From Oscillospiraceae bacterium (lineage in GTDB: Bacteria; Bacillota; Clostridia; Oscillospirales; Acutalibacteraceae), in NCBI GenBank assembly GCA_015066015.1, contig SVPE01000005.1:1-64000 (forward strand): a stretch of DNA of 64,000 nucleotides. Direction: 5' to 3'. Shown here in pieces: positions 15,858 to 37,318 of this stretch (within the stretch, counting starts at the first letter, position 1; every line of letters starts with the position of its first letter). The position numbers were made by a program, and so were the translations under genes. Under the pieces are notes generated by a model. It did no database searches, was not told the origin of the DNA, and worked only from the letters and a program-made list of their open reading frames with translations.

Positions 15858-15950
15858 GGCGCAGAAGCCGGTGTCCGCGTGTGGACACCGGACTTCATTT
15901 TCGCAGAAAACGAAGTAATGCAACGCTCCGTGTTGCATTACTTCTGCGCC
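15858..15950. repeat. Cloverleaf element C
   Basis: A 10-bp closing stem (GGCGCAGAAG 15858-15867 with CTTCTGCGCC 15941-15950) encloses three hairpins without spacers: 9 bp (15868-15891), 9 bp plus one mismatch (15892-15916) and 8 bp (15917-15939). An alternative 13-bp hairpin (GAAGTAATGCAAC with its complement, ending at 15944) competes with the closing stem. Confidence 0.75.
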
Positions 15951-21302: not shown

Positions 21303-21321
21303 TTTTTAACTATTCATTCTT

Positions 21322-21354
21322 AAAATACCGCAGCATTCCGCTGCGGTATTTTTT
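21322..21354 (+). terminator. Terminator of the phosphoesterase gene
   Basis: A 13-bp stem (21322-21334 with 21340-21352, arm AAAATACCGCAGC) followed by six T. Confidence 0.85.
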
Positions 21355-21406
21355 ATAAAAACATTTATAGACAAAAAGCTGCATTCATTATAGTATATTT
21401 TTTCCA

Positions 21407-21435
21407 TTGACTTGATATATGCTTTATGCTAAAAT
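21407..21435 (+). promoter_or_regulatory. Promoter of the degenerate LCP gene
   Basis: TTGACT (21407-21412), 17 bp, TAAAAT (21430-21435). Transcription should begin near 21442. Confidence 0.65.
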
Positions 21436-21449
21436 ATATATGTACAATT

Positions 21450-21470
21450 CAGCACTCTGTGCTGTTTTTT
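21450..21470 (+). terminator. Leader terminator/attenuator upstream of the degenerate LCP gene
   Basis: CAGCAC-3-GTGCTG followed by six T lies about 8 nt after the expected transcription start and 43 bp before the gene. A second stem TTCCTT/AAGGAA (about 21483-21499) follows and ends just before the ribosome binding site. Confidence 0.55.
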
Positions 21471-21512
21471 ATTTATACAACGTTCCTTTACGGAAGGAAA
21501 GAGGATAAAATA

Positions 21513-22451: not shown

Positions 22452-22466
22452 TTAATACTAAGCTTC

Positions 22467-22493
22467 CCGGCCGCGACGTAAAGTCGCGGCCGG
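22467..22493 (+). terminator. GC-rich hairpin after the degenerate LCP gene
   Basis: An 11-bp perfect stem (22467-22477 with 22483-22493, arm CCGGCCGCGAC) and a weak AATTTATT tail. Confidence 0.65.
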
Positions 22494-22552
22494 AATTTAT
22501 TATACAGCATCTTCGGCTTGCATCTCTTAATGTAAATCCGGAGTGTATTTAC

Positions 22553-22694
22553 GCGGCGAGGCCCTTTGACCGAAGTCAAAGGCGGAGGGGGGAGTGCTTC
22601 TCTGCAAAATCCGGACAGACTGACCGCCGGGCGACGGTCCTTTCAGCGAAACAGTGCACCCCCTCCGGCAATGCGAAGCATTGCGCCTCGCCGC
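22553..22694. repeat. Cloverleaf element A
   Basis: The closing stem GCGGCGAGGC (22553-22562) with GCCTCGCCGC (22685-22694) encloses three arms. These are CCTTTGAC-4-GTCAAAGG (22563-22582), a long GGAGGGGG...CCCCCTCC arm (22583-22667) and GCAATGC-3-GCATTGC (22668-22684). The arms abut with no unpaired bases. It is the inverse-orientation relative of element B. Confidence 0.88.
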
Positions 22695-22724
22695 TTATTC
22701 AACTGAGCCTCTTATTGAAAAAAA

Positions 22725-22991
22725 TCACCTAAAAAGCAAGCCGATTGAAAGCCCTGTAAGAATACCGGCAAGAAGAAGTGCACCGGCCTTAAGATATTCA
22801 TTTATGCGACTTTTCCGCAGTTTAGTCGGCGGAGGTGAAGTAGCAATCTTTGTCACAAGTCCGGCTCTTTCACGTATTTTACCTTCACTGAGACCCACAT
22901 ATTCCGGTTTTATGAAAAACAGTATCTTTTCAAAACAGTCATTTCCTGTATCTTTAACCTCAACAACCTGACGGTTGATACCTTTGATCAT
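22725..22991 (-). CDS. Small conserved membrane protein
   Basis: 88 aa. The start at 22991 (MIKGINRQVVEV) has GAAAGGTG upstream; a start 16 codons earlier has no ribosome binding site. The N-terminal half carries KDTGNDCFEKILFFIKPEY, and the C-terminal 20 residues form one hydrophobic helix ending in the last residues, so it is a tail-anchored protein facing the cytoplasm. The layout resembles a short protein common in Clostridia, with no assigned function. Confidence 0.7.
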   Translation of the reverse strand: MIKGINRQVVEVKDTGNDCFEKILFFIKPEYVGLSEGKIRERAGLVTKIATSPPPTKLRKSRINEYLKAGALLLAGILTGLSIGLLFR

Positions 22992-23160
22992 AGGATTTCT
23001 CACACCTTTCAGTTTCTTCTTTTTTATTTTTGTTTTCATTTCAATTTTATATACTTTGGAAAAATATAAATGTGGTAATTACATCATATGATATAATTAC
23101 TTTATTAAATTAGTAGAACTTGAATTGAAATTTTTGTACTCTTTGTATAGGGCCTTTTTT

Positions 23161-23221
23161 CACGTTTTCCACATGTTTTTGCGCTATAAAATGTTGATAA
23201 CTATGTGGAAAACGTGGAAAA
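23161..23221. promoter_or_regulatory. DnaA-box-like inverted repeat cluster
   Basis: A 14-bp perfect inverted repeat (CACGTTTTCCACAT 23161-23174 and ATGTGGAAAACGTG 23203-23216) holds two TTTTCCACA boxes. A third box-like CGTGGAAAA (23213-23221) abuts the second. The surrounding gap 22992-23492 is AT-rich and carries only this and the glgP promoter. Confidence 0.5.
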
Positions 23222-23406
23222 CCCCCTTAAAATCAAGGTTTTTCATCTCATAATACCGTTGAAAACTGTGTCTGTTCTATGTTGAAAACTTACAAAAGAA
23301 GGACTTTTAATGCCTTGTAAAGCAAAAAATATGAGTTGTTAGGATTAAAATTTTAAGAAATTTTGGTTATTTTTACTCTTTTCTGATAAATTTTCTTCAT
23401 TTGGTG

Positions 23407-23435
23407 TTGATTTTTTGTTTAAAATGGTGTAAAAT
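23407..23435 (+). promoter_or_regulatory. Promoter of glgP
   Basis: TTGATT (23407-23412), 17 bp, TAAAAT (23430-23435). Confidence 0.65.
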
Positions 23436-23492
23436 AAGCCTACAGATTACCCAGAGGCAAAATTTATAATGAATGATTTTGGAGGTTTACTT

Positions 23493-25901
23493 ATGAATTA
23501 TGCACTTTCCAGGAAACAGGCAAAGGATTTAATCACCGGAAAGCTTTCCCATTATTTCGGTGTAAATCCCGAAGAAGCTACAAATGAACAATACTATAAA
23601 AGTGTTGCAATGATCGTAAAAGATCTTATGCACGACGGCCTTCGCGAATTCAGAGAAGATGCTGATAAAGCTGCTGACTCAAAGAAGATTTACTACCTCA
23701 GCATGGAATTCCTCATGGGTCGTTCACTTAAAAACAATCTTTATAATCTTAATCTTACAAGCACATTTTCCGCCGCACTCAAGGATATGGGCATAAAGCT
23801 CGAAAAGCTTTATGACTGTGAACCTGATGCGGGTCTCGGCAACGGCGGTCTCGGTAGACTTGCCGCCTGCTACCTTGACGGACTTGCAACTCAGGGCTTT
23901 TACGGTATGGGCTACAGCATTCTTTATGAGGCCGGTATTTTCAAGCAGAAGCTTGTTGACGGTTGGCAAACAGAGCTTCCCGACTTCTGGCTTCCCGGCG
24001 GCGAAGTATGGCTCAGAGCAAAGGAAAAGGACACCGTAGAGGTTCGCTTCGGCGGTGAAATAATTGACAAATGGGACAATCACTACCATAGCGTAGAACA
24101 CATCAACGCCCAGACAATTATGGCTGTTCCCTACGACATGTATGTCAGCGGCAAGGACGGCAGAGGCATTTCAGTTCTCCGTCTGTGGAAGAGCGTTGCA
24201 CCCTCTCTTGATATGAAGCTTTTTGACCAGGGCCAGCATCTCAAGGCAGTTGAGCAACAGGCAAATGCTGAAATCATCAGCAAAATTCTTTACCCCTCAG
24301 ACAACCACTACGAAGGAAAGTGTCTGCGTCTCAAGCAGCAGTATTTCCTCGTATCTGCTTCAATTCAGGATATCGTTGCAAGACATCTTCGCCACGAACC
24401 TTCAATGGAAAACTTCGCAGAGAAGAACGCCATTCACATCAACGATACCCATCCCACACTTTCAATCCCCGAGCTCATGCGTATTCTTCTTGACGAATGC
24501 GGTTACGGCTGGGACGAAGCCTGGGCAATCGTTACAAAGGCCACAGCATATACAAACCACACTGTTATGAAGGAAGCTCTCGAGTGCTGGTCAGAAGATC
24601 TCTTCAAAAGCTTTCTTCCCAGAATTTATACAATCGTAAAGGAAATCGACAACCGTTACCGTGCACACATCTGGGAGCAGACCCACGATGCAGGCAAGGT
24701 TGAAGAAATGGCTGTTATTTCCGGCGGCATTATCAGAATGGCTAACCTTTGCGTTGCAACCTGTCACAGCGTAAACGGCGTTTCAGCTCTTCACTCACAG
24801 ATTCTTAAGGACAGTCTCTTCAACAGCTACTACAAGCTTACTCCCGACAAGTTCAAAAACGTAACAAACGGTATTGCCCACAGACGCTGGCTCTGTCAGG
24901 CTAACCCCGAGCTCACTTCTTATCTTACAGAGCTTATAGGTGACGGCTTCATCTATAACGGTGACGAGCTTGCAAAGCTCCGCGATTTTGCAAATGACAA
25001 AAAGGTACTTAAGAAAATCGGCGACATCAAATACAACAACAAAAAAGCCTTTGCCGCTCACGTAAAAAAGACAATGGGAATCGAGCTCAATCCCGATTCA
25101 ATCTTTGACGTTCAGGTAAAAAGACTTCACGAATATAAACGCCAGCATCTCAACGCATTTCAGATCATTGCAAGATACCTTGAAATCAAGGACAATCCCG
25201 ACGGCGACTATGTTCCTCACACATATATTTTCGGTGCAAAGGCTGCATCAGGCTACTTTATGGCAAAGAAAATCATTCAGATGATCTGCTCACTCGCAAA
25301 CGTTATCAACAATGACCCCGATATGCGCGGCAGACTCAAGGTAGTTTTCCTTGAAGACTATAACGTAACAATGGCTGAAAAGCTTATGCCCGCTGCTGAC
25401 ATCAGTGAACAGATTTCCCTTGCAGGTACAGAAGCAAGCGGTACCGGAAATATGAAGCTTATGATCAACGGTGCTCTCACTCTCGGCACACTCGACGGTG
25501 CCAACGTTGAAATCAACGAAGCAGTTACCGATGATAATATGTTCCTCTTCGGCATGAAGACTCCTGAGGTTAACGAGCTTAAGCGCAGCAACTATCAACC
25601 CATCAATTACTATAACAACAATGCTGAGCTCCGCAGAGTCATTGAATTCATCCAGAAAGGCTTTGACGGAAAGCAGTTCCCCGAAATCGGCAACACAATC
25701 ATTTATCACGACCCCTACATGGTACTTGCTGACTTTGCCGATTACAGAAGAGCACAGAAGAAGATTGACGAAGTATGGCGCGACAGAGATAAGTGGAATA
25801 AAATGTCCCTTCTTAATACTGCAGGTGCAGGCCGTTTCGCAACAGACAGAGCAATCCTCGACTATGCAAGAGACATCTGGCACACACAGCCCGTAAGATA
25901 A
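23493..25901 (+). CDS. glgP: Glycogen/starch phosphorylase
   Basis: 802 aa, full length for GT35 enzymes. It cleaves alpha-1,4-glucans with phosphate to glucose 1-phosphate in the cytoplasm. PLP is bound by K655 in EASGTGNMKLMINGALTLGT, and the glucan and phosphate sites are seen in GNGGLGRLAACYLDGLA, TLDGANVEI and the VKRLHEYKRQ segment. Start ATG 23493 has GGAGG 7 bases upstream; an upstream ATG in frame has none. It is monocistronic with its own promoter and a strong terminator. Its presence implies storage or use of glycogen-like glucan. Confidence 0.97.
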   Translation: MNYALSRKQAKDLITGKLSHYFGVNPEEATNEQYYKSVAMIVKDLMHDGLREFREDADKAADSKKIYYLSMEFLMGRSLKNNLYNLNLTSTFSAALKDMGIKLEKLYDCEPDAGLGNGGLGRLAACYLDGLATQGFYGMGYSILYEAGIFKQKLVDGWQTELPDFWLPGGEVWLRAKEKDTVEVRFGGEIIDKWDNHYHSVEHINAQTIMAVPYDMYVSGKDGRGISVLRLWKSVAPSLDMKLFDQGQHLKAVEQQANAEIISKILYPSDNHYEGKCLRLKQQYFLVSASIQDIVARHLRHEPSMENFAEKNAIHINDTHPTLSIPELMRILLDECGYGWDEAWAIVTKATAYTNHTVMKEALECWSEDLFKSFLPRIYTIVKEIDNRYRAHIWEQTHDAGKVEEMAVISGGIIRMANLCVATCHSVNGVSALHSQILKDSLFNSYYKLTPDKFKNVTNGIAHRRWLCQANPELTSYLTELIGDGFIYNGDELAKLRDFANDKKVLKKIGDIKYNNKKAFAAHVKKTMGIELNPDSIFDVQVKRLHEYKRQHLNAFQIIARYLEIKDNPDGDYVPHTYIFGAKAASGYFMAKKIIQMICSLANVINNDPDMRGRLKVVFLEDYNVTMAEKLMPAADISEQISLAGTEASGTGNMKLMINGALTLGTLDGANVEINEAVTDDNMFLFGMKTPEVNELKRSNYQPINYYNNNAELRRVIEFIQKGFDGKQFPEIGNTIIYHDPYMVLADFADYRRAQKKIDEVWRDRDKWNKMSLLNTAGAGRFATDRAILDYARDIWHTQPVR

Positions 25902-25907
25902 CACAAA

Positions 25908-25945
25908 AACACCGCCGTGAGACTAACCTCCCGGCGGTGTTTTTT
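25908..25945. terminator. Bidirectional terminator
   Basis: A 10-bp stem AACACCGCCG/CGGCGGTGTT (25908-25917 with 25932-25941) with a T-run; it separates glgP from the convergent uptake operon. Confidence 0.8.
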
Positions 25946-25951
25946 ATAGCG

Positions 25952-26701
25952 TCACGCTGTCGTGCTCTCAATTTTTCCGAGTATCAGCTTTTTGTAGCTT
26001 ATAAACCCGTCATCGGTAACCTCACCGATATTTCTCGGCTTAGGCAAATCAATTTTTATCTCATCAGTGATTCTTCCCGGCACTCCCGAAAGAATGTAAA
26101 CCCTGTCGGAAAGAAGAATCGCTTCATCGATATCATGGGTGATAAGCACTGTTGACAGACCTATCTCCTTTATGATATTGAGATACCAGCTATGCATTGC
26201 ACTTTTCGTTATCGTATCAAGGGCGCTGAAAGGCTCATCAAGAAGCACAACGTCATTTCCCGTAAGATAGGTGCGCATAAGTGCCGCACGCTGTCTCATA
26301 CCGCCGGAAAGCTCAGAGGGATACTTCTTTTCGCAATTTTCCAGACCGAAAAGGCTGAAATACCCACCGGCTTTTTTTCTCGCCTCTTTTTTCTTTTCTC
26401 CCTTCATCACAAGCGGAAGAGACACATTGTCGATAACAGTATAATGAGGCAGAAGCAAATCCTTCTGCAGCATATAGCTGACCTTGCCCGTCTTTCCTGT
26501 TATATCCTCACCGTCAAGGTAAACCTTACCCTCATCAACCGGTCTGAGTCCTGCAACAGCATTGAAAAATGTTGTTTTTCCACAGCCGCTTGCACCGAGA
26601 ATTGAAACAATTTCTCCCTTTTCAAGGCTGAGATTTATATTTTCAATTACAGGTTCATTATCATAGGTTACGGTAACATTTTCCGCTTTTAGCTTAAGCA
26701 T
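25952..26701 (-). CDS. ABC transporter ATPase of the thiamine-precursor operon
   Basis: 249 aa, a nitrate/sulfonate/taurine-type ATPase: Walker A GASGCGKTT (residue 35), Q-loop YMLQKDLLLPHYT, signature LSGGMRQRAA, Walker B VVLLDEPFSALD and switch H in ITHDIDEA. It powers the importer formed with the two genes upstream. ATG follows AAAGGA and starts 4 bp after the substrate-binding gene. The TPP riboswitch at the head of the operon points to thiamine or its pyrimidine precursor as cargo (ThiZ-like role). Confidence 0.9.
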   Translation of the reverse strand: MLKLKAENVTVTYDNEPVIENINLSLEKGEIVSILGASGCGKTTFFNAVAGLRPVDEGKVYLDGEDITGKTGKVSYMLQKDLLLPHYTVIDNVSLPLVMKGEKKKEARKKAGGYFSLFGLENCEKKYPSELSGGMRQRAALMRTYLTGNDVVLLDEPFSALDTITKSAMHSWYLNIIKEIGLSTVLITHDIDEAILLSDRVYILSGVPGRITDEIKIDLPKPRNIGEVTDDGFISYKKLILGKIESTTA

Positions 26702-26705
26702 TGAA

Positions 26706-27710
26706 TCAATCCTTTAAAAATTCATTTGTAAAGCCGAAGTTTTCGGGAATTTCATTTTCAATAAGACCTTCACTGTAAACCCAACTGTAATACGCGTTCC
26801 ATCTGTCAGCGTCAAATACACCCCAACTTTCAGCGTCGTCGATGTATTTTTCACTTATCCACTTCTGGCTTGCAGTTACAAAATCAAGTGAATCGTTAAG
26901 TGAGCCTGTAGTGTCACCCTCAACAAGGATTTTTGCCGCTTCTTCCGGATTTGTTACAGCGTATTCGTAGCCCTTTTTGGTTGCACTGAGAAAAGCCTTT
27001 GCAGTTTCGGTATTTTCACTAAGAAAAGCATTGTTTGCAACAATTACGGGAGTATAATAGTCAAAGACCTTGTCAATATCAGTAAAGGCAAAATAATCGA
27101 AATCAAGCCCTGCCTTTTCACAGGCAACACCTGCCCATGCATAATAAATCCATATTGCATCGGTATCATTATTTCTGAGCGCTTCAGCTTCATTTGTCAC
27201 AACATTGGGAATCAGCTGAAGCTTGCTGAAATCGGCGCCTTCCTTTTCCATAACATATTTCACTGTTGCCTGCTCAATTGGCCAGTCCCAAGTGGAATAG
27301 CGTTTGCCTTCAAGCCCCTTCGGAGAGGTAATGCCTTCACCCTTGCGGGAAATTATACCTGAAGTATTATGCTGTAAAATTGCAGCAACGCTTGTTATTT
27401 CAGGGGGATTTTCAGTTGAAAATAAATCGGCAAGTGTATCCTGGAAGGAAATGCCGAACTGTGCCTGACCTGACGCCGTCATCAGCTCTGCACCGTTTTC
27501 GGGAGGCTGAACGATTGAAACCTTGATTCCTGCTTCCTCATAATAACCGAGCTTATCGGCAACAAAAAAGCCTGTGTGGTTGGTGTTGGGTGTCCAGTCA
27601 AGGCAAATTGTAATTTCAGTAAGTCCGTCACCGTCCTTTTCTGCATTGCCACAAGCAGAAAAAGTAAAAAGAAGTGCGAGTGAAAGAATTAAGCAGATTA
27701 TTTTTTTCAT
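26706..27710 (-). CDS. Substrate-binding lipoprotein, NMT1/THI5-like (ThiY-like)
   Basis: 334 aa lipoprotein with lipobox FSAC (C20). The NMT1/THI5-type fold begins with LDWTPNTNHTGFFVADKLGY (residue 38), followed by STWDWPIEQATVKYV and DAIWIYYAWAGVA. Relatives bind hydroxymethylpyrimidine or formylaminopyrimidine, the salvage forms of the thiamine pyrimidine. Placement in a TPP-riboswitch operon supports this. The ligand identity is inference. Confidence 0.88.
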   Translation of the reverse strand: MKKIICLILSLALLFTFSACGNAEKDGDGLTEITICLDWTPNTNHTGFFVADKLGYYEEAGIKVSIVQPPENGAELMTASGQAQFGISFQDTLADLFSTENPPEITSVAAILQHNTSGIISRKGEGITSPKGLEGKRYSTWDWPIEQATVKYVMEKEGADFSKLQLIPNVVTNEAEALRNNDTDAIWIYYAWAGVACEKAGLDFDYFAFTDIDKVFDYYTPVIVANNAFLSENTETAKAFLSATKKGYEYAVTNPEEAAKILVEGDTTGSLNDSLDFVTASQKWISEKYIDDAESWGVFDADRWNAYYSWVYSEGLIENEIPENFGFTNEFLKD

Positions 27711-27725
27711 TTTAAAACCTCTTTC

Positions 27726-28502
27726 TTAAGAACGTTTTTTATAACGCAGAACGTAATTTCTCATCACATTTATAAATGCCATAAGCAAAAGAGAAAGAGC
27801 TGAAATCAGTATAATAACGGCAAACATCTTGTCAAAGGCGTATGCCTTTTTTACCCTTGTCATATATACACCGAGCCCCTCAAAGCCACCGAGCCATTCG
27901 GAAATCACTGCACCTACAACGCTGTAGGAAGCAGACACCTTAAGTCCTGAAAAAAACTGCTCTGCCGCTGCAGGAAGCTTCACGTGGCGAAAAACCTGAA
28001 ATCTGTTTCCTCCCATGGAGCGCACAAGATTGATCTCGTCTCTGTCGGCACTTTTAAAGCCGTCAAGAAGGGAAACCGTAACCGGAAAAAAGGTAGTCAA
28101 TACAACAAGAGTGATCTTAGGGGCCATTGAAAATCCCATCCACAGAACAAGAAGCGGAGCGATTGCAATTGTGGGGATGGTCTGGCTTATTACGAGAAGG
28201 GGATAGAATGCCTTATAAAGAAAATCGAATCTGTCCATTAAAACCGCAATAATAAAACCGATTGCAGTACCCGTGATAAGGCCGTAAAGAGCCTCCTGCA
28301 CCGTCACAACAGCGTGAGTGAAAAGAATCTCAACATCTGAAAAGAAAGCCTTCACAACCTCAAAAGGTGACGGAAGCATATAGGCAGGAACAATTTCTCC
28401 TTCGCTTAAGACAAGCCACAGTAAAATAACTGCAATAACAGAAATAACCGGAGCCAGCTTATTTGTGATGTTTTGAAACTTTTTTGTCAATGGTAAGTAC
28501 AC
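27726..28502 (-). CDS. ABC transporter permease (ThiX-like)
   Basis: 258 aa, six predicted transmembrane helices of the SsuC/TauC type, with the EAA loop DEINLVRSMGGNRFQVFRHV followed by LPAAAEQFFSG near residue 165. The frame opens with GTG at 28502, overlapping the thiamine-binding gene by 44 bp. A TTG four codons later is a possible alternative; neither has an ideal ribosome binding site, so translational coupling is likely. It forms the channel of the thiamine-precursor importer. Confidence 0.85.
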   Translation of the reverse strand: MYLPLTKKFQNITNKLAPVISVIAVILLWLVLSEGEIVPAYMLPSPFEVVKAFFSDVEILFTHAVVTVQEALYGLITGTAIGFIIAVLMDRFDFLYKAFYPLLVISQTIPTIAIAPLLVLWMGFSMAPKITLVVLTTFFPVTVSLLDGFKSADRDEINLVRSMGGNRFQVFRHVKLPAAAEQFFSGLKVSASYSVVGAVISEWLGGFEGLGVYMTRVKKAYAFDKMFAVIILISALSLLLMAFINVMRNYVLRYKKRS

Positions 28503-28758
28503 CGCCTTCCGGCTTAAAACAGATCTTCACATAAGCAGAAACTGCTTTACAACCTGCATTTACTGCGACCTTCTGACAGTTTTTCACAATCTCCATAAGG
28601 TCGTCATAGCTGTCTCCCTCAATTGTTGTTTCAAAAGGTCCTACATAATAGTTATAGCCTGTAGAAGCTATATATGCGATTACCTCGTCAACAATACGGA
28701 TAAGCTCTTCGTCGTCATGCACATCGGGTAAAACCTGAATTGCTACACTTGCGTTCAT
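28459..28758 (-). CDS. MTH1187/YqgV-family thiamine-binding protein
   Basis: 99 aa. ATG 28758 follows AAGGAG; it is the first gene after the TPP riboswitch. The sequence has the family pattern: VAIQVLPDVHDDEEL at the start, YYVGPFETTIEGDSYDDLM in the middle and AVSAYVKICFKPEG near the end. Members form small ferredoxin-like oligomers that bind thiamine or thiamine-like ligands in the cytoplasm. Here it probably hands on or buffers the imported pyrimidine or thiamine. Confidence 0.9.
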   Translation of the reverse strand: MNASVAIQVLPDVHDDEELIRIVDEVIAYIASTGYNYYVGPFETTIEGDSYDDLMEIVKNCQKVAVNAGCKAVSAYVKICFKPEGGVLTIDKKVSKHHK

Positions 28759-28835
28759 AAAAAACACTCCTTTATGATATTTCAACATATCAATACAACC
28801 TTTGGAGATTTCGTGAGTTTCTTTTCAGCGCGCAT

Positions 28836-28870
28836 AAAAAGAAAAATCCACCCCTTGATACTACGGGTGG
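28836..28870 (-). terminator. Riboswitch expression-platform terminator
   Basis: CCACCC/GGGTGG stem (28848-28853 with 28865-28870) followed on the minus strand by a T-rich run (ATTTTTCTTTTT), directly after the TPP aptamer. Confidence 0.8.
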
Positions 28871-28875
28871 AAAAG

Positions 28876-28956
28876 CTCATTACTTAGCCTACGTCGGTAT
28901 TATCCGAATCAGGTTATGGGTATAATCTCAGCCGAAAAATTCAGCACCCCCAGTAA
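28876..28956 (-). promoter_or_regulatory. TPP riboswitch (THI element)
   Basis: The minus strand carries the conserved aptamer parts in order: GGGGTGC, CTGAGAT, ACCC, ACCTGAT and GGATAATACC, closing with AGTA against TACT. With the terminator behind it, it should switch the thiamine-uptake operon off when TPP is plentiful. Confidence 0.95.
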
Positions 28957-28974
28957 TATTCATATGTCGGTTGT

Positions 28975-29004
28975 ATTATAGCACCGTGAAAAGGATTTTG
29001 TCAA
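28975..29004 (-). promoter_or_regulatory. Promoter of the TPP-riboswitch operon
   Basis: Minus-strand TTGACA (29004-28999), 18 bp, TATAAT (28980-28975), both hexamers perfect. Confidence 0.85.
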
Positions 29005-29061
29005 GTGGTGAAATAATATCAGTCGGCAGTAAATTGCCTGAATTTCACACTCCGTATTCTC

Positions 29062-29090
29062 TTGATTTCTTCACACTTTCATACTAGAAT
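29062..29090 (+). promoter_or_regulatory. Promoter of the HAD phosphatase gene
   Basis: TTGATT (29062-29067), 17 bp, TAGAAT (29085-29090). Confidence 0.5.
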
Positions 29091-29122
29091 AATATACATA
29101 CCAGAGCAAAGGAATGATAACT

Positions 29123-29770
29123 ATGTATAAAGCAGTAATTTTTGACCTTGACGGCACACTTCTTAATACACTGGGTGACCTTCACGCTGCAGTCAATCAT
29201 GCGCTTCGTTCTTTTTCATTTCCGGAAAGAAGTATTGACGAGGTGCGCAACTTTATCGGCAACGGTGTAGTAAAACTTATGGAAAGATCAACCCCGGAAA
29301 ACACCGATAAAAAAACAAACAGTGATTGTCTTGATGTTTTCAGGGCATACTATCTTATGCATATGCAGGATATGACAGCTCCCTACGAAGGCGTGTGCGA
29401 GCTGATTGAGACACTGCGTGAAAAGGGGATAAAAACAGCCGTTGTATCAAACAAGCTTCATCAGGCAGTTTATGAGCTCTGTCTTGACTTTTTTCCCGGT
29501 CTTATCGATGAAGCAATCGGTGTCAGTGATGAAAGCGAGCGCAAGCCGTCACCCGTAAATGTATATAAAGCCCTTCAGGAGCTCGGCGTATCTGCCGAAG
29601 AATGCATCTACATCGGTGACAGTGAGATTGATGTGCAAACCGCCCACAACGCAGGCATAAAATGCATAGGTGTAACCTGGGGTTACCGCGACCGATGCGA
29701 GCTTGAGAAGGCAGGAGCAGATTTAATAGCTGATACCTGTGACAAAGTTTTATCACTTTTTTTTAATTGA
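29123..29770 (+). CDS. HAD-family phosphatase, phosphoglycolate phosphatase-like
   Basis: 215 aa. HAD motifs: VIFDLDGTLLNT (I), VVSNKLH (II), the lysine in ERKPSP (III) and IGDSEIDVQTAHNAG (IV), with an alpha-helical cap typical of Gph/PpaX. It hydrolyses small phosphorylated metabolites in the cytoplasm, plausibly 2-phosphoglycolate or pyrophosphate. Start ATG 29123 has AAAGGA 9 bases upstream; the ATG three codons earlier sits directly on it. The GH2 promoter begins right behind its stop. Confidence 0.9.
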   Translation: MYKAVIFDLDGTLLNTLGDLHAAVNHALRSFSFPERSIDEVRNFIGNGVVKLMERSTPENTDKKTNSDCLDVFRAYYLMHMQDMTAPYEGVCELIETLREKGIKTAVVSNKLHQAVYELCLDFFPGLIDEAIGVSDESERKPSPVNVYKALQELGVSAEECIYIGDSEIDVQTAHNAGIKCIGVTWGYRDRCELEKAGADLIADTCDKVLSLFFN

Positions 29771-29795
29771 CTTTAAATTTGTTCCAATATATAAT
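29767..29795 (+). promoter_or_regulatory. Promoter of the GH2 gene
   Basis: TTGACT (29767-29772), 17 bp, TATAAT (29790-29795). The -35 overlaps the end of the HAD gene. Confidence 0.75.
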
Positions 29796-29827
29796 AAAAG
29801 GGATAAATTAAAAAAGGAGATACGGAT

Positions 29828-32083
29828 ATGAGAACAATTCTTAACCTTAATAAGAGCTGGCTTTTCAAAAAGCCTTCCGAAGAAGCTGTCGCAGTTGACC
29901 TTCCCCATTCATGGAATGCTGTCGACGGTCAGGACGGCGGCGCAGACTATTTCAGAGGTACCTGCCGCTACACAAAAACCCTTAAGAAATCAGAACTTCC
30001 CGAAAGCGATTGCTATTACCTAGAAATCCGCGGTGCAAACTCCTCTGCCGATGTTTTTGTCGGCGGTGAAAAGCTCGCACACCATGACGGCGGATACAGC
30101 ACCTGGAGAGTTGACATCTCAAAGCATATCGCTGATGAAACATTAATAGAAATTGATGTTGATAACTCTCCAAATGACAGAGTTTATCCACAGATGGCAG
30201 ACTTCACCTTCTACGGCGGTCTTTACCGTGATGTGAACCTTATCTGCGTACCCGAAAGTCACTTTGACCTCGATTATTTCGGCACACCGGGCCTTAAGGT
30301 TACACCTGAAATCAAGGGCAAGGATGCAGAAATCGAAATCGACGCCTATATCACAAACAAAAAGGACGGACAGCTTCTGCGCTATACCATATTCGATGCA
30401 GACGGCGCAGTTGTTGCAACAAAGACAACCGATGACGATGACGAGGAATTTGATATCAAAAATGTGCACCTCTGGCACGGCAGAAAGGATCCTTATCTTT
30501 ATTCTGCAAAGGTTGAGCTTCTTGACGGAGACACCGTTCTTGACGAGGTAAGTGCACGCTTTGGTTGCCGTACCTTTAAGATCGACCCTGAGGAGGGCTT
30601 CTTCCTCAACGGAGAGAAATATCCCCTTCACGGTGTTTCACGTCATCAGGACCGTCTCGGAATCGGTAACGCTCTTCTTCCCGAGCACCACAGAGAGGAT
30701 ATGGAGCTTATCTGCGAAGTAGGTGCAAACACAATCAGACTTGCTCACTATCAGCACGACCAGTATTTCTATGACCTTTGCGATGAAAAGGGTATGGTTA
30801 TCTGGGCAGAAATTCCCTATATCTCACAGCATATGGCTACAGGCCGCGAAAACACTATCTCACAGATGAAGGAGCTTGTCACTCAGAACTACAATCACGC
30901 TTCAATCGTTGTGTGGGGTCTTTCAAATGAAATTACCATGCACGGTGCAGCCGATCCTGATCTTATAGAAAACCATAAGATTCTTAACGATCTGTGCCAT
31001 AAAATGGACAAAACAAGACTTACGACAATTGCCTGTCTTACAATGTGCGATCCCGACAGTGAATATGTGAAAATTCCCGATGTTGTCTCCTACAACCACT
31101 ATTTCGGTTGGTACGGCGGAGAGGCTTCCATGAACGGTCCTTGGTTTGATAAGTTCCATAAGAATCATCCCAACATTCCCATCGGCTGCAGTGAGTACGG
31201 CTGCGAAGCTCTCAACTGGCACACCTCAAAGCCTCAGCAGGGCGACTATACCGAAGAATATCAGGCATACTATCACGAGGAGCTTATCAAGCAGCTTTTC
31301 ACAAGAGAGTACATCTGGTCAACTCATGTATGGAATATGTTCGACTTCGGTGCCGACGCACGTCAGGAGGGCGGCGAAAACGGACAGAATCACAAAGGTC
31401 TTGTCACAATGGACAGAAAATATAAGAAGGATTCATTCTATGCTTACAAAGCATGGCTTTCCGACGAGCCCTTCGTGCATCTCTGCGGCAAGAGATATAT
31501 CGACAGAGTTGAAGATGTTACCAGGGTAACCGTTTACTCAAATCTTCCCGAGGTAGAGCTTTTTGCGAACGGCAAGTCTCTCGGCAAAAAATCAGCCTCA
31601 GACCACTTCTTCTACTTTGATGTACCCAACGAGGGCGAAACAAAGCTCGAAGCCGTTGCAGGCGACTTCAGGGATGAAAGCGTAATAAGAAAAGTAGACG
31701 AAATCAATGAGGAATACGTTTTCAAGGAGAAGGGTGCAATTCTTAACTGGTTTGATATCACCACACCCGAAGGCTACCTCAACATCAACGATAAATTCTC
31801 AACAATCTGCAAGACCTTCAAGGGCAAGCTGACAACCGTTTCCTTCGTGCTTATGCTTCTTAAAAAGTTCAAGGCAACCAAAAAAGGCGACGGTGAAAAT
31901 AAGAAGGAAGGCGGCGGACTTCCCGGCGGTATGAAGCCTTCAAAGGAGCTGCTTCAGATGGCAGGTGCCTTCACGCCTCTCCGTATTGCAAACCTTATCG
32001 GTGCTATGGAGGTTAAATTCACAAAGGAAGAGCTTCTCGCACTCAATGCAAAGCTCAACAAGATAAAGGCTCCTAAGGAGTAA
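29828..32083 (+). CDS. Glycoside hydrolase family 2 enzyme with a C-terminal extension
   Basis: 751 aa. Sugar-binding domain (residues 1-150), immunoglobulin-like domain (about 155-250), TIM barrel (about 255-560) and a further beta domain to about 640. The acid/base is E368 in VVWGLSNEI and the nucleophile E456 in PIGCSEYG. No signal peptide, so it acts on imported oligosaccharides, as beta-galactosidase or beta-glucuronidase. The last 110 residues add a lysine-rich linker and two helices (LLQMAGAFTPLRIANLIGAM, FTKEELLALNAKLN) that are not part of the core enzyme. Own promoter and terminator. Exact substrate unknown. Confidence 0.92.
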   Translation: MRTILNLNKSWLFKKPSEEAVAVDLPHSWNAVDGQDGGADYFRGTCRYTKTLKKSELPESDCYYLEIRGANSSADVFVGGEKLAHHDGGYSTWRVDISKHIADETLIEIDVDNSPNDRVYPQMADFTFYGGLYRDVNLICVPESHFDLDYFGTPGLKVTPEIKGKDAEIEIDAYITNKKDGQLLRYTIFDADGAVVATKTTDDDDEEFDIKNVHLWHGRKDPYLYSAKVELLDGDTVLDEVSARFGCRTFKIDPEEGFFLNGEKYPLHGVSRHQDRLGIGNALLPEHHREDMELICEVGANTIRLAHYQHDQYFYDLCDEKGMVIWAEIPYISQHMATGRENTISQMKELVTQNYNHASIVVWGLSNEITMHGAADPDLIENHKILNDLCHKMDKTRLTTIACLTMCDPDSEYVKIPDVVSYNHYFGWYGGEASMNGPWFDKFHKNHPNIPIGCSEYGCEALNWHTSKPQQGDYTEEYQAYYHEELIKQLFTREYIWSTHVWNMFDFGADARQEGGENGQNHKGLVTMDRKYKKDSFYAYKAWLSDEPFVHLCGKRYIDRVEDVTRVTVYSNLPEVELFANGKSLGKKSASDHFFYFDVPNEGETKLEAVAGDFRDESVIRKVDEINEEYVFKEKGAILNWFDITTPEGYLNINDKFSTICKTFKGKLTTVSFVLMLLKKFKATKKGDGENKKEGGGLPGGMKPSKELLQMAGAFTPLRIANLIGAMEVKFTKEELLALNAKLNKIKAPKE

Positions 32084-32102
32084 TAAGCTATAAAAACAAA
32101 CG

Positions 32103-32134
32103 GGACACGGCTTCGCCGTGTCCTTGCTTTTTTG
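32103..32134 (+). terminator. Terminator of the GH2 gene
   Basis: A 9-bp stem GGACACGGC/GCCGTGTCC (32103-32111 with 32115-32123) with a TTGCTTTTTT tail. It may also stop the convergent exporter operon. Confidence 0.75.
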
Positions 32135-32159
32135 AAATTTTAATTTGTAAAAAGCCCTT

Positions 32160-33965
32160 TTAAGCTTTGCTTTCTTCTCTGTACTTTTCCGCCTGCAGGT
32201 TAAACATTCTGGCATAAGTGCCGCCTTTTTTCATTAATTCATCGTGGCTGCCGCACTCAATGATTCTGCCTTTTTCCATAACGTAAATTCTGTCAGCGTG
32301 TACTGTGGTGGAAAGTCTGTGAGAAATGAAAATAACAGTTTTATTGTCTGCCGCCTCAGTCATTGCCCGGTTAAGATTATACTCTGCAACAGGGTCAAGA
32401 TTTGCCGACGGCTCATCGAGTATTACATAAGGACAGTCCTTATAAAAGGCCCTTGCAATTGCTATTTTCTGGCTTTCGCCTCCGGAAAGCATTACACCCT
32501 CATCGTCAAATTCTCTGAGAAGCTCTGTTTCTGTACCGTTTTTCAGTTTTTTCCCGAATCCGCTGTGTGAAAGCGCCTCCATTACCTTTTCACTGTCATA
32601 TTCCTTATCAAGGGCTACGTTTTCGCCTACATTGAGAGAGAAAAGTCTGAAATCCTGAAAAACAGCCGCGAAACGGTCACGGTGAGAATCAACAGTTGCG
32701 TCTCTTATATCTTCTCCGTCAATGAGAATCGCCCCTTCTGTAGGGTCGTAAAGACGAAGCAAGAGATTAGTCAGCGTAGTTTTTCCGGCGCCGTTATAGC
32801 CTACAAGAGCAATTTTTTCATATGGCTTTATTGTGAGGCTGATATTTTCCAGCGTAGGTTCACTGTTTCCGGGATAAGTAAAGGAAAGATTTTCTATTTT
32901 TATTTCCTTGGGCTTGCCCTTTTCTGCCTTGTTTTTACCGTCGCTGATTCTGAAATCCGTCTTTAAAAATTCACGGTATTTTTCAATCATTTTTCCTCTT
33001 TCAGAGAAAACGGCAACTGCCCACACAGTAAGAAAATTAATCGATGACGCAATGGAAAAGGCACCGTTGAAGGCTGCAACAAATTCACCGGGAGAAAGAC
33101 TGTTTTTGACAAGCACACAGTAACCGAGATAAAGAGGCAACACAAACATAAAGCCCAATATCTGAATTCCGCTTTCCTGAATCATATAAAAGCCGGAAAT
33201 CCTCTTCCAGTAGTATTTCTGGTTTTTTACAACATCGGTAGCCGCGTCGTTATATCTTTCAATAAGCAGGGGAGAGATTTCATTCATTCTTACCTCCTTG
33301 CAATAATCCTGGAGATAAAAAATGCGTTGGAAATAGTCACTTCTGCGATGAAACCTTGTATTGTCAACCCTTCGTTGCATCTGGAGGTTGCCTATTTTTT
33401 TGCTTAAGGGTGAAAAAACACCGATGAAAAACAGAATTATCACAAGACAGACGGGATCAATGGTAAGAAGCACGGATCCGATTGAAAAAAGCAGAATAAT
33501 GTTACCGACATAGTTTCTCACAAGACCGAGAAGATTCTGTATATTGTCCGAAGAGGACTCTATTGTAAGAATGAAGTTATTATAAAAATCCGGATTGTCG
33601 TAGCTTTCCTCATCGAGCTGCCTTGCTTTATCATAAAGCTTTTTATTAAGCCCGTAATAAACTCTTTCCCTTTCCATATTCCAGAAAAATTCTCTGAAAA
33701 TCCAGGTAAATACATTACTGACAACAATAATAAGAGCAATTATGCCGACTGCCGCAAAGATTCTTTCAAGCCTTTCACCTTCTGAAACAACGTCAATTAT
33801 ATACTTTACACCTATTACGCTGATAAGCCTCGGAGGTACATGCATAAGAATACCCCATGCGAATTCTCCTATTACAAGCATCGGCGAAACTTCGAAAAGG
33901 AGCTTTATAAAAAACATTATATTGGAGAACATTGAATGGGCAGTTTTTTCCTTATTCTTTTTCAT
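32160..33965 (-). CDS. ABC exporter half-transporter, second subunit
   Basis: 601 aa: a six-helix membrane domain (about 1-330) fused to an ATPase (about 350-590). Walker A GYNGAGKTT, signature LSGGESQKIA, Walker B YVILDEPSANLD, then LDPVAEYN and the switch H in ISHRLST. It overlaps the upstream partner by ATGA, so the two are coupled and form a heterodimeric exporter. The substrate is unknown; this type often exports peptides, lipids or drugs. A minus-strand T-rich end lies beyond position 32160. Confidence 0.92.
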   Translation of the reverse strand: MKKNKEKTAHSMFSNIMFFIKLLFEVSPMLVIGEFAWGILMHVPPRLISVIGVKYIIDVVSEGERLERIFAAVGIIALIIVVSNVFTWIFREFFWNMERERVYYGLNKKLYDKARQLDEESYDNPDFYNNFILTIESSSDNIQNLLGLVRNYVGNIILLFSIGSVLLTIDPVCLVIILFFIGVFSPLSKKIGNLQMQRRVDNTRFHRRSDYFQRIFYLQDYCKEVRMNEISPLLIERYNDAATDVVKNQKYYWKRISGFYMIQESGIQILGFMFVLPLYLGYCVLVKNSLSPGEFVAAFNGAFSIASSINFLTVWAVAVFSERGKMIEKYREFLKTDFRISDGKNKAEKGKPKEIKIENLSFTYPGNSEPTLENISLTIKPYEKIALVGYNGAGKTTLTNLLLRLYDPTEGAILIDGEDIRDATVDSHRDRFAAVFQDFRLFSLNVGENVALDKEYDSEKVMEALSHSGFGKKLKNGTETELLREFDDEGVMLSGGESQKIAIARAFYKDCPYVILDEPSANLDPVAEYNLNRAMTEAADNKTVIFISHRLSTTVHADRIYVMEKGRIIECGSHDELMKKGGTYARMFNLQAEKYREESKA

Positions 33966-35782
33966 TCCTGCACCTCCGTTTCTCCCTTGTAGCTGGATGC
34001 CTGAAGTGTAAACATTTCACTGTATATGCCACCTTTTTGCATCAGCTCTTCATGTGTACCATCCTCAGCAATTCTCTTGCCGTCAAGGACGAGAATTCTA
34101 TCGGAAAGCACTGCACTTGAAAGTCGGTGGGAAATATAAAGCACGGTTTTGCCCGCCGTTACATTTATAAGACTCTCGTACATTTTATATTCAGCAACGG
34201 GGTCAAGGGCAGAAGAAGGCTCATCGAGCACCGCAAAGGAAAAATCCTTTGCAAAAAGTCTTGCCACAGAGAGCTTCTGGTTTTCGCCGCCCGAAAGACC
34301 GACACCGTCCTTGTCAAACTCTCTTGTAAGCACGGTATCTCCTTTTTCGGGAAGAGAAGCTATCTTATCCCATACACCGCTTTGCTTAAGGGCTGTTTCA
34401 GCTCTGAGCTTATCCTCCCCGTCACATTCGTGACAGATGATGTTTTCATACACGGAAATTGCAAAGTTGGTGTAATCCTGAAAAACCGCACCGAATATAC
34501 TTCTTAATGAGGCCAGAGTATAAGCCCTGATGTTTTTGCCGTTGAGTATAATCTCTCCCTCGGTGACATCGTAAAAGCGTAAAAAAAGCTTCACAAGGGT
34601 GGATTTACCCGCACCGTTGACACCGACGAGAGCAAGAGTCTCACCCTTATCTATACGGAAGCTGACATTTTCGAGCGTACATCCTTCTGCTGACGGATAT
34701 TTAAAAGAAACGTTTCTGAATTCCAGACTTTCAAAATCACCGCAGATTTCCTCGCCGTCCTTCACATTGCTTTCAAAATCCAAAAACTCTCTCATATTCT
34801 GAAAATAGAAGGCAAAGCGGCTCATACCCTCAAAGTTGTTTGCCATTCTCAGCGTTGCCTGCTGAACGGAATTGATGGATGAGATAACTACGGAAAATGC
34901 AGAAACGGTGAGTGTCCCCGTAAAAACAAACTGATAGCCCGCAAGAGCATATGTACCGATTATGGGAATAAATTCACTGAAAAGAGTGCTTACTGCACTG
35001 AAAAGAAAAAGCTTCATTCCGTATGAGCGGAGAATCTCAACATTGGAATCAATTGCATCCCTGAACCTTATCATAAGGGCAGAGAAAACATTTGATGTTC
35101 TCATGTCCTTTGAGAAATCCTTAAGGAAAACCGTTCTCTGAATGTATGCCTTCACGCGGTTGTTTGTGGTCATCTCCTTGTCTCTTTTATAGACAAGCTT
35201 CGCCTTGAAGTTTTCCACGGGGAAAACAAGAATAAGCGGAGAAAGGAATATAAGGTATGCGGGGTCAACGGTAAAGACTGTACCAATTACAAGCATAAGA
35301 GCTATAACCGAAGCTATCATTGCCGTAACAGCGGCACAGGCAGAGTCAAAAAGCCCCCAGGCAAGCACGTCTGTGGCCCTCTGATACTTATCGTAAAAAG
35401 CCGGATCCTCGTAACAGGCAACGTCAAGGGAGACAGCTTTTCTGAAAATTTTGTTGTTTACCTGCTTGAGCACATTTTTTGTTGCTGTCTGGCGAAGGTA
35501 GGTGGTATACCAGTTTACCCCCTTGAGAACAAGGGACAAAGCAAGAAAAATCACAAGGTTTTTTATGTACTCATTAAAGCTGCCTTCAGCATCTATTATA
35601 CCGAGCAAAACACGCAGAAAAAGGATATTCTGCACATAAAGGGAGAAAACCTCATCGGCAATCATACTTGCAAGATAACCGAGAAAAAGTCTTTTATCAG
35701 CTTCCCAGCCAAGCTTTACCGCAAAAAGTATGTTCTTTGTGACGGGAACACGCTTGTGATCCTTCTGGTAAACTCTCGCCAT
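33962..35782 (-). CDS. ABC exporter half-transporter, first subunit
   Basis: 606 aa with the same membrane-ATPase layout: Walker A GVNGAGKST, signature LSGGENQKLS, Walker B FAVLDEPSSALD and ISHRLSS. Start ATG 35782 is preferred because AAGGAG lies 9 bases before it, while the in-frame ATG at 35791 touches it. The catalytic Glu follows Walker B in both subunits (DEPS), so both nucleotide sites may be active, unlike many heterodimeric exporters with one degenerate site. No regulator or two-component genes sit next to it. Confidence 0.92.
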   Translation of the reverse strand: MARVYQKDHKRVPVTKNILFAVKLGWEADKRLFLGYLASMIADEVFSLYVQNILFLRVLLGIIDAEGSFNEYIKNLVIFLALSLVLKGVNWYTTYLRQTATKNVLKQVNNKIFRKAVSLDVACYEDPAFYDKYQRATDVLAWGLFDSACAAVTAMIASVIALMLVIGTVFTVDPAYLIFLSPLILVFPVENFKAKLVYKRDKEMTTNNRVKAYIQRTVFLKDFSKDMRTSNVFSALMIRFRDAIDSNVEILRSYGMKLFLFSAVSTLFSEFIPIIGTYALAGYQFVFTGTLTVSAFSVVISSINSVQQATLRMANNFEGMSRFAFYFQNMREFLDFESNVKDGEEICGDFESLEFRNVSFKYPSAEGCTLENVSFRIDKGETLALVGVNGAGKSTLVKLFLRFYDVTEGEIILNGKNIRAYTLASLRSIFGAVFQDYTNFAISVYENIICHECDGEDKLRAETALKQSGVWDKIASLPEKGDTVLTREFDKDGVGLSGGENQKLSVARLFAKDFSFAVLDEPSSALDPVAEYKMYESLINVTAGKTVLYISHRLSSAVLSDRILVLDGKRIAEDGTHEELMQKGGIYSEMFTLQASSYKGETEVQE

Positions 35783-35816
35783 ATGCACCATCTCCTTTTT
35801 TATAATTTCGAAAAAC

Positions 35817-35845
35817 AGTATACTATTTTAACCGGTCAAAAGCAA
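35817..35845 (-). promoter_or_regulatory. Promoter of the ABC exporter operon
   Basis: Minus-strand TTGCTT (35845-35840), 17 bp, TATACT (35822-35817). Confidence 0.55.
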
Positions 35846-35917
35846 GTCTTGTAATAATATTTATTTTATGATATAATTTTTATTGAAGATAGGACAGTCA
35901 GGGGCTGTCCGCACTCA

Positions 35918-36028
35918 GCGGTGAAGTGCAATGCTTTGCATTGCCGGAGCCGGGAAAAATCTGTTTCCCGAAAACGAAACAGACTTTTCCCGGCTACGCC
36001 TTTGACCAAAGTCAAAGGACTTCACCGC
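35918..36028. repeat. Cloverleaf element B
   Basis: The closing stem GCGGTGAAGT (35918-35927) with ACTTCACCGC (36019-36028) encloses three arms that abut one another. These are GCAATGC-3-GCATTGC (35928-35944), a long arm (35945-35998; GCCGGGAAAA, one mismatch, TCTGTTTC and complement) and CCTTTGAC-4-GTCAAAGG (35999-36018). The remaining part of 35783-36109 holds the exporter promoter and a GGACAG-7-CTGTCC hairpin (35892-35910). Confidence 0.9.
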
Positions 36029-36066
36029 GTACCGTCACTCCATATTTATATCCGGTCAAAGCTTTA

Positions 36067-36099
36067 ACCCCCGTCAGGATTCGATGTCCTGACGGGGGT
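36067..36099. terminator. Palindrome with TTCGATG loop
   Basis: A 13-bp perfect stem (36067-36079 with 36087-36099, arm ACCCCCGTCAGGA) around loop TTCGATG follows the 3' end of the minus-strand gene. No T-run, so termination is uncertain. Confidence 0.6.
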
Positions 36100-36109
36100 A
36101 TGTTAATTA

Positions 36110-37012
36110 TCAATAGTTAATTGTATAGTCCTTTTCAAATGAGAGAACAACCTTTGCATCAACGGTTGTAACAACTACGCTTACCAAAGCATCAATTGCA
36201 AGCGGTGTAAGGTAGTTTGCCCAGGTAACGTGCTTTGTTTCCTTGTCAATTTTACATTTTACAACACAGCCGCTGTAAGTAATGGTGAATTCCTTGAGGA
36301 TTGCGGAAACCGCACCGTTTGATGTGACCTGATCTGCTTCAATAACGTCACATACTGCACCAACACCCGTTCCTGTTACAGGATTTACGCTTGAGTTGAG
36401 GTTGAGAGTAACCTCGTATTCACTGCCGTTATCAACACAGGTTGCGCTTGCAACATCTGCTGCAGTAAGCTGACTTGAATATGCCTGTCCGGGCACCTGA
36501 TAGTTTGCTATGATATCATCCTTTGTTGCATATTCAATGGGATCTGTATCATCTCCGAGATACTGATCCATAAGGCTTGACGCAAGAGAGTTAAGCGCTG
36601 ACGGAACAACAGACTGCTCTGCATCATAGTCGCGCATCTCAAAATTTTTTGTAATCTTTGTTGCATCTGTCTTGATCTTGTTTGCAGCTTCATTGAAAAG
36701 TGCGAGAATTTCCTCTGTTGTATATGCTCCTGTTGAAGGCATTGCCGGAGCTGTTGTCTGTGGCTGGTCGGCTACGGGAGCAGTTGTCTGTACAGGTGCA
36801 GTTGTTGCTACTGTGTTTACTGCGGGGGTCTGCATCGTACGGTCAACAGAAGCCGCCGCATTAAAAACGGGGATTGTTCCGTTTGCCGTGATTTTTGTCA
36901 GTGAGCCGACAAAGTTACCCGAAGCAAAAACAAGAATAACTACAAGTGCAATACAAATACCTTTTCTTGTTGATTCTTCAATACTGTTCCAAAATTCTTT
37001 TAAATTGTTCAT
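36110..37012 (-). CDS. Membrane-anchored hypothetical protein with Thr/Pro linker
   Basis: 300 aa. A short cytoplasmic start, one transmembrane helix (about residues 18-38), a Thr/Ala/Pro/Val-rich linker (about 58-95), and an exported domain (100-300) of mixed helices and strands with two cysteines (near 208 and 240). No lipobox. The linker is like that of surface-displayed proteins. ATG follows AAAGGGATC. I do not recognise a family. Confidence 0.75.
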   Translation of the reverse strand: MNNLKEFWNSIEESTRKGICIALVVILVFASGNFVGSLTKITANGTIPVFNAAASVDRTMQTPAVNTVATTAPVQTTAPVADQPQTTAPAMPSTGAYTTEEILALFNEAANKIKTDATKITKNFEMRDYDAEQSVVPSALNSLASSLMDQYLGDDTDPIEYATKDDIIANYQVPGQAYSSQLTAADVASATCVDNGSEYEVTLNLNSSVNPVTGTGVGAVCDVIEADQVTSNGAVSAILKEFTITYSGCVVKCKIDKETKHVTWANYLTPLAIDALVSVVVTTVDAKVVLSFEKDYTINY

Positions 37013-37192
37013 TTTCGATCCCTTTCTATATGTGTTTTGAATTAACCTCGGTTATTATATTACATTTTTTCCTTTCGTGCAATATAAAATTCAAAATTCT
37101 CTGTCAATGCACCAACAAATTTTTTATAAAAGCAAGAGAGCCCCAGGTAATTGAAGACCGTGGATGCATATACACTTAACCGTTATGCACAC

Positions 37193-37221
37193 TTGACTTT
37201 CTCACCCTTTTGTATTATCAT
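37193..37221 (+). promoter_or_regulatory. Promoter of glyQS
   Basis: TTGACT (37193-37198), 17 bp, TATCAT (37216-37221). The approximately 90-nt leader has no recognisable T-box (no GGTGG-type antiterminator core). Confidence 0.65.
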
Positions 37222-37318
37222 ATACTGAACAGTTGAAGGCAGTTGCCTTATCTGAAAATTTCTTCTTACCACGCCGAAGCCATCGGTGAAAGGGAGAAGA
37301 CTGAAAGGAAGTATTTAT

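Follow-up and report, generated by a model that had tools for sequence, protein, structure and literature searches.

A dispersed repeat folding as covarying four-way DNA junctions in one Oscillospiraceae genome, possibly a mobile element

To our knowledge, the dispersed palindromes of bacteria described to date are single hairpins. Miniature inverted-repeat transposable elements (MITEs) and repeats of the BOX, RUP and ERIC type are non-autonomous, dispersed and bounded by terminal inverted repeats; integron attC sites have a variable sequence and are recognised largely by their single-strand shape, and the terminal repeats of parvoviruses such as adeno-associated virus (AAV) are self-folding multi-arm DNA ends, three-way and placed at a viral end, that are copied through hairpins. 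The nearest known kind to the repeat treated here is the REPIN. REP sequences and REPINs are short extragenic palindromes, many per genome, with compensatory changes in their hairpins (PMC3116915); they are linked to a single-strand transposase and have been proposed to move as folded single strands (PMC3116915 and PMC6006769), and the IS200/IS605 family, related to the REP/REPIN system, has a link to the lagging strand (PMC6006769). Here we analysed a 64-kb stretch (the window) of an Oscillospiraceae bacterium, positions 1 to 64,000 of contig SVPE01000005.1, which belongs to genome G000 (2.38 Mb, 42 contigs, 91% complete), and in it two elements, A and B, in which a closing stem and three hairpin arms (T, M and N) make up a four-way junction, or cloverleaf (Table 1). 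Copies of this cloverleaf were found at 68 or more places in G000, A and B among them, and we tentatively take the family to be a non-autonomous mobile DNA that is recognised, probably as a folded single strand, by the sequence of its closing stem and the shape of its junction. No paper on bacterial DNA cloverleaf repeats was found in the open-access literature searched.

The cloverleaf copies resemble REP sequences and REPINs in being extragenic (by open reading frame (ORF) calls, which are guesses), numerous and palindromic. However, a REPIN is a single long hairpin formed by two inverted REP motifs, with conserved REP ends, whereas each of the 68 cloverleaf copies closes into a four-way junction that bears three arms. 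A REPIN also has a cognate RAYT (TnpA-REP) gene, usually near the copies; in G000 (~91% complete) Pfam Y1_Tnp gave one partial match (profile positions 57-121, in a 98-aa frame) away from the copies, with no cloverleaf in its 3.2-kb stretch. Given its different architecture, and with no complete cognate enzyme identified, the cloverleaf is not filed here as a REPIN. It is like MITEs and BOX/RUP/ERIC-type repeats in being non-autonomous and dispersed, with the closing stem as its inverted repeat, and differs from them in lacking a clear target duplication and in an interior of three covarying hairpins. Unlike attC sites, the cloverleaf consists of four helices, frequently lacks any extrahelical base where they meet, and occurs as single dispersed copies. 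The AAV repeat is an analogy only, being a three-way viral end, whereas the cloverleaf is a four-way dispersed bacterial repeat.

The original prediction, made from the window alone, had described A and B as two intergenic cloverleaves in opposite orientation with compensated closing stems, and direct reading of the sequence agrees on these points. Both closing stems, GCGGCGAGGC in A and GCGGTGAAGT in B, are matched by complete complements, and the three positions at which they differ are all compensated; the arms GCAATGC/GCATTGC and CCTTTGAC/GTCAAAGG meet at a junction without any unpaired base, and the order of the arms on the plus strand is reversed between the two elements. The middle arm is long and variable as described, although in A only ~9 base pairs are firm in the centroid fold, and the long tip that follows is loosely folded. 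Folded as DNA, A reached -45.9 kcal/mol, where shuffled sequences averaged -27.2 (z -6.0), and B reached -46.5 kcal/mol, where they averaged -13.7 (z -12.0); for neither element did any of 200 shuffles match the real sequence. A structure scanner that is independent of any covariance model, and looks for an inverted repeat of at least 7 with an interior folding into abutting hairpins, reported three three-armed junctions in the window: the two elements themselves and a third of unrelated sequence. Three block-shuffled versions of the window contained no such junction.

The predicted count of two proved too low. A first covariance model (R1), built from 6 copies, gave 50 matches at E <=1, and a full-length model (R2), built from 47 copies, gave 114 matches in G000 at E <=0.1. 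Of these, 46 repeat a place already matched on the opposite strand, so that the matches come down to 68 non-overlapping places; with 150 of 824 candidates scored, this is a minimum. The copies are ~90-160 bp long, and in the minimum-energy DNA fold all of them have the closing stem and exactly three branches, a result that is partly by construction because R2 searches for that layout. Unpaired junction bases number 0 in 34 copies, 1-2 in 25 and 4-6 in 9. The model-free scanner reported a three-armed junction at 59 of the 68 places with looser settings and at 54 with tighter ones. Further divergent members with a similar closing stem lie at C33:60077 and C33:103162 (contigs of G000 are given as C33 and the like), and a derivative with the closing stem and a single arm at C25:112280. 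A search for an autonomous version or half elements in 985 kb of the genome's 2.38 Mb gave no long element with these ends. A longer palindrome was rejected as well, there being no complementarity past the closing stem.

The closing stem is kept in sequence and the arms are kept more in shape. Compared pair by pair, the copies are on average identical at 0.82 of closing-stem positions; the value falls to 0.74 for arm T, 0.63 for arm M, 0.48 for arm N and 0.32 for the loops; many copies carry GCGGGGAGGC or something near it as the closing stem, and a subgroup carries GCGGTGAG. Similarity between copies stops sharply at the closing stem, beyond which most flanking sequences seem to have nothing in common. 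At least 4 matching flank bases were present in 19 of 68 copies against ~12 with shuffled flanks, with no common length, a comparison that leaves room for a fixed duplication of 2-3 bp. A MITE with an obvious target duplication is disfavoured, as no fixed length stands out. A high-scoring subgroup has longer shared flanks and is set among other intergenic repeats. At C33:95301-96226 and C5:112081-112947, the gaps consist of several repeat modules around a cloverleaf, including GCAGAATGCAGAGT units, a TTGCGGTCGCGGGCGAGTTAA-type unit and a 412-bp repeat that is 89% alike between C33 and C5.

That pairing rather than sequence is preserved, as predicted, was supported by a check of base-pair covariation in an alignment of 47 of the 68 copies (21 were left out). 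Changes on both sides occurred at 46 of 52 pairs (349 cells), none of 500 shuffles was as good and no slid version came close; 90.4% of 2356 cells are paired. The cells are not independent events because the copies are paralogues. Chance palindromes or an assembly artefact are hardly credible as the origin of the family: the fold scores of A and B (z -6 and -12), the 0 of 500 alignment shuffles and the shuffled windows without a junction speak against chance, and many copies lie deep within long contigs, although a contig-end hairpin did give one false model match, in genome G063 (below). A chimaeric bin is not favoured either, because genes of C33 and of the window alike match congeners, with best scores from G014.

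The original prediction had left open a folded RNA or a DNA cruciform, and the mismatches narrow this towards DNA, with weak controls. RNA helices favour G-U, and A-C is not tolerated in them. Over all cells of the 47 copies we counted 71 G-T and 67 A-C among 2356, and cells flanked by Watson-Crick pairs held 16 G-T, 15 A-C and 19 other mismatches among 1467; the preference for G-U over A-C that is expected of a structured RNA was thus not found in these copies. In a control set of thiamine pyrophosphate (TPP) riboswitches (28 of the 34 matches listed; four of the six left out had no locus of their own and two were simply not included), there were 51 G-T vs 0 A-C among 420 cells, all from two fixed positions, and 0 vs 0 among 136 cells in the stricter count. 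The tRNA control gave 26 G-T vs 0 A-C among 363 cells for all loci (17 tRNAs) and 4 vs 0 among 120 in the stricter count (10 tRNAs); because the tRNA program marks paired positions only, A-C cannot appear and only the G-T rate is comparable, at 7.2% vs 3.0% in the cloverleaf copies. The symmetry of the mismatches favours DNA rather than RNA; in our reading, the fold had its importance at the DNA level and has decayed neutrally since each copy was inserted. An RNA element is disfavoured mostly because G-T and A-C are about equally frequent.

The copies avoid gaps on the promoter side, between divergent genes. With the longest ORFs taken as genes, the numbers of copies in convergent, tandem and divergent gaps are 24, 38 and 6, respectively, against 3, 15 and 8 among gaps of the window longer than 80 bp (ORFs were cut at 240 bases around the copies and at 300 in this single-window background), and the comparison of convergent with divergent gaps gave p 0.003. 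The strand on which the arms read T-M-N is the G-rich strand, presumably the leading strand, in 46 of 68 copies (p 0.005; skew taken locally or per contig, and from ~3 kb for short contigs). In tandem gaps it is also the gene strand in 27 of 38 cases (p 0.014), which, together with the small number of copies in divergent gaps and the strong covariation, would suit a cis-acting or stand-alone RNA, such as a riboswitch, a terminator or a stabiliser of mRNA 3′ ends. We consider such an RNA very unlikely. Besides the mismatch pattern, Rfam had no family at gathering score on either A or B, in keeping with their predicted place outside the known riboswitch classes (its only matches in the window were one tRNA and one TPP riboswitch), and an intrinsic terminator role for A or B was not borne out, the nearby terminator-like sites (Table 1) being separate hairpins. 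Moreover, where tandem genes run along the G-rich strand, T-M-N follows the genes in 22 of 28 cases, and where they run against it, in 5 of 10; the G-rich strand is followed in 16 of 24 convergent and 3 of 6 divergent gaps. Small as these numbers are, they give a hint of a link to replication and not to transcription.

Further copies in related genomes, which the original prediction had led one to look for, did not turn up: R2 matched none of 58 other genomes, a set that includes 33 congeners (best 62 candidates per genome scored, with stricter filters). This absence argues against an old conserved cis-regulatory RNA, and it was not taken as a refutation of the family itself because 68 copies exist in its own genome and the 47 aligned ones covary. 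Among 393 other genomes of the order (best 9 candidates each) one matched, G063, and this match is read as the contig-end hairpin mentioned above, at which the scanner reports no junction; a deeper search gave one match in G038 at E 0.53 and another in G063 at E 0.76. Exact-pattern matches, 4 among genome contigs and 10 among viral contigs, were also rejected, none folding as a cloverleaf, in collections that may omit records of G000 or near-identical genomes. BLAST of one copy of the 68 against phages and plasmids gave no match. One C33 locus spans 924 bp in G000, including a copy and other repeats, and 68 bp in the congener G014. At A and B no clean empty site was obtained because G014 is rearranged there. 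The comparison of window positions 20340-38704 with contig C15 of G014 showed strong local rearrangement; in G014 the left flank of A joins the left flank of B, reversed, which is one of the two junctions that an inversion between the oppositely oriented copies A and B would be expected to leave; the second junction was not found. Separately, stretches of the congeners G001 (L117) and G008 (L110) contain runs of short ATATC/GATAT palindromic repeats, which are unlike the cloverleaf family.

Within G000, C33 (257 kb) holds 14 copies, C5 (185 kb) 12, C25 7, C16 and C18 2 each and C2 1, and R2 found 0 on each of C11, C21 and C27. Scans of C11, C21, C27 and C2 (100, 100, 80 and 80 kb) with the structure scanner gave a few weak junctions, unlike the family, one of which (A+T-rich, at C2:75323) passes the ‘strong’ cut applied later. 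Such regional clustering, the lean to one strand and a fold kept apparently at the DNA level would be in line with a chromosome-organising or protein-binding site, at which an extruded cruciform is bound by a nucleoid, junction-resolving or segregation protein and the copies are selected in place. We regard this explanation as unlikely, since a conserved signal would be expected in congeners and none of 33 matched, and the mismatches resemble neutral decay. Moreover, strong junctions number 2 in ~1.09 Mb of congener stretches, some of them overlapping (one in G004 and one in G024), vs 57 in ~1.0 Mb of own DNA, part of which was chosen around copies.

Under the mobile-DNA interpretation, recognition would depend on closing-stem sequence and junction shape, probably in a folded single strand, and only well-folded copies would be mobilised, so that the arms could drift in sequence and yet stay paired. 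When the hairpins are copied through, fold-back or template-switch synthesis may alter both halves of a stem at once, and after insertion the copies would decay neutrally. The fold, the covariation, the mismatch symmetry, the sharp ends, the copy number and the position bias were computed directly. An alternative is that the palindromes perpetuate themselves: quasipalindrome correction by template switching would both create and maintain perfect arms, without any selection acting on the fold, and ordinary duplication would spread the copies. Changes on both sides are already present among copies at least 90% alike (46 both-sided vs 70 one-sided changed cells, in 35 non-independent pairs), and template-switch homogenisation of inverted repeats has been published (e.g. 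PMC7202029 and PMC8604942). By itself, however, this process leaves unexplained one closing stem with three arms at 68 places (a layout that was searched for), as well as the sharp ends, the mostly unrelated flanks and the lean to one strand, and we find it quite unlikely as the whole explanation; template-switch correction may act together with a mobile-DNA mechanism.

Several observations weigh against mobile DNA, for which we infer movement, a single-strand intermediate and an enzyme. No mobilising enzyme was identified, Y1_Tnp having been sought and other recombinase families not searched, and no excision or insertion event was seen. The only empty site, the C33 locus compared with G014, is compound, with other repeats within the 924 bp, and the segments that could be matched to the nearest congener share 66-90% identity, which is too distant for base-exact insertion sites. 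The spread over the nine contigs longer than 100 kb with known length is uneven (chi2 38.6, df 8), and random insertion does not explain it. The strand bias is moderate, at 26 of 34 higher-scoring vs 20 of 34 lower-scoring copies in a post hoc split; an ORF was called over or against the copy in 16 of 68 cases, the gene calls being longest-ORF guesses. The TPP and tRNA controls are weak, and alignment noise, which adds G-T and A-C alike, may account for many of the mismatches counted in the cloverleaf.

Four-way junctions of other sequence also occur in G000, in the window (the third cloverleaf of Table 1) and at C33:157636-157730, C5:104096-104202 and C33:189720-189806, the last with a near-copy at C33:190061-190147; several of them have plain hairpins within a few bases. 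In the congener G004, two more junctions were found after the first, and all three share the closing-stem core GGCGGCTCCC, while their nine arms, of ~11-20 pairs each, are largely unlike by eye, except that two last arms share GAGCG-ACC. It is conceivable, though on balance doubtful, that these junctions belong to a class of mobile DNA identified by shape, that is, a four-way cloverleaf with a lineage-specific closing stem as its handle and hairpin arms of any sequence that are rewritten in step on both sides, perhaps as the element is copied through its own hairpins. Arm rewriting would then cause homology between copies to vanish while the architecture persists, as in the G004 trio and the unrelated junctions of G000. 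At C33:189600-190320, a repeat whose ends are TGTTGCATTAAG/CTTAATGCAACA is bracketed by two near-identical cloverleaves with a following hairpin; it looks as though an insertion had made, or sits in, a long direct duplication. Another structured repeat, of ~129 bp, forms a three-way junction with closing stem TGCATTGTT and two long arms at several places of G000 (window 9265-9393, C27:58529-58657 and C41:43316-43442); its window copy lies inside a duplication of ~213-bp period that is 97% identical (9073-9512).

The immediate neighbourhood of both elements is intergenic. A lies 3′ of a LytR_cpsA_psr gene and its terminator-like hairpin, and B has an ABC transporter gene on one side and, on the other, a gene at 36110-37012 without a Pfam match. 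The hairpin next to B, on the side of this last gene, may terminate it on the minus strand.

Table 1. Cloverleaf elements and neighbouring hairpins of the window (positions in the window)
Feature	Position	Strand	Description and basis
Cloverleaf element A	22553..22694	+	Arm order T-M-N; R2 model E 1.6e-7, DNA fold
A closing stem, 5′ side	22553..22562	+	GCGGCGAGGC; sequence reading
A arm T	22563..22582	+	CCTTTGAC-CGAA-GTCAAAGG; sequence reading
A middle arm M	22583..22667	+	Long, variable; ~9 firm pairs at base; centroid fold
A arm N	22668..22684	+	GCAATGC-GAA-GCATTGC; sequence reading
A closing stem, 3′ side	22685..22694	+	GCCTCGCCGC; sequence reading
Cloverleaf element B	35918..36028	-	T-M-N order reads on this strand; R2 model E 4.3e-11, DNA fold
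B closing stem	35918..35927	+	GCGGTGAAGT; sequence reading
B arm N	35928..35944	+	GCAATGC-TTT-GCATTGC; sequence reading
B middle arm M	35945..35998	+	Sequence and DNA fold
B arm T	35999..36018	+	Sequence and DNA fold
B closing stem, other side	36019..36028	+	ACTTCACCGC; sequence reading
Terminator-like hairpin after the gene upstream of A	22467..22493	+	~60 bases before A; A outside it
Near-palindromic hairpin with terminator-like tail	36067..36099	called on + by scan	Between the 36110-37012 gene and B
Third cloverleaf, four-way junction	15858..15950		Sequence unlike A and B; plain hairpin 7 bases after

If the present interpretation is true, a dispersed, covarying four-way junction kept at the DNA level would be a new architecture, and the copies in G000 would provide natural substrates that resemble Holliday junctions. 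A further consequence would be that covariation alone does not prove RNA, and the comparison of G-T with A-C mismatches, given better controls, could sort other candidates for ‘orphan structured RNA’. Moreover, the family offers a direct route to a possibly novel structure-specific enzyme.

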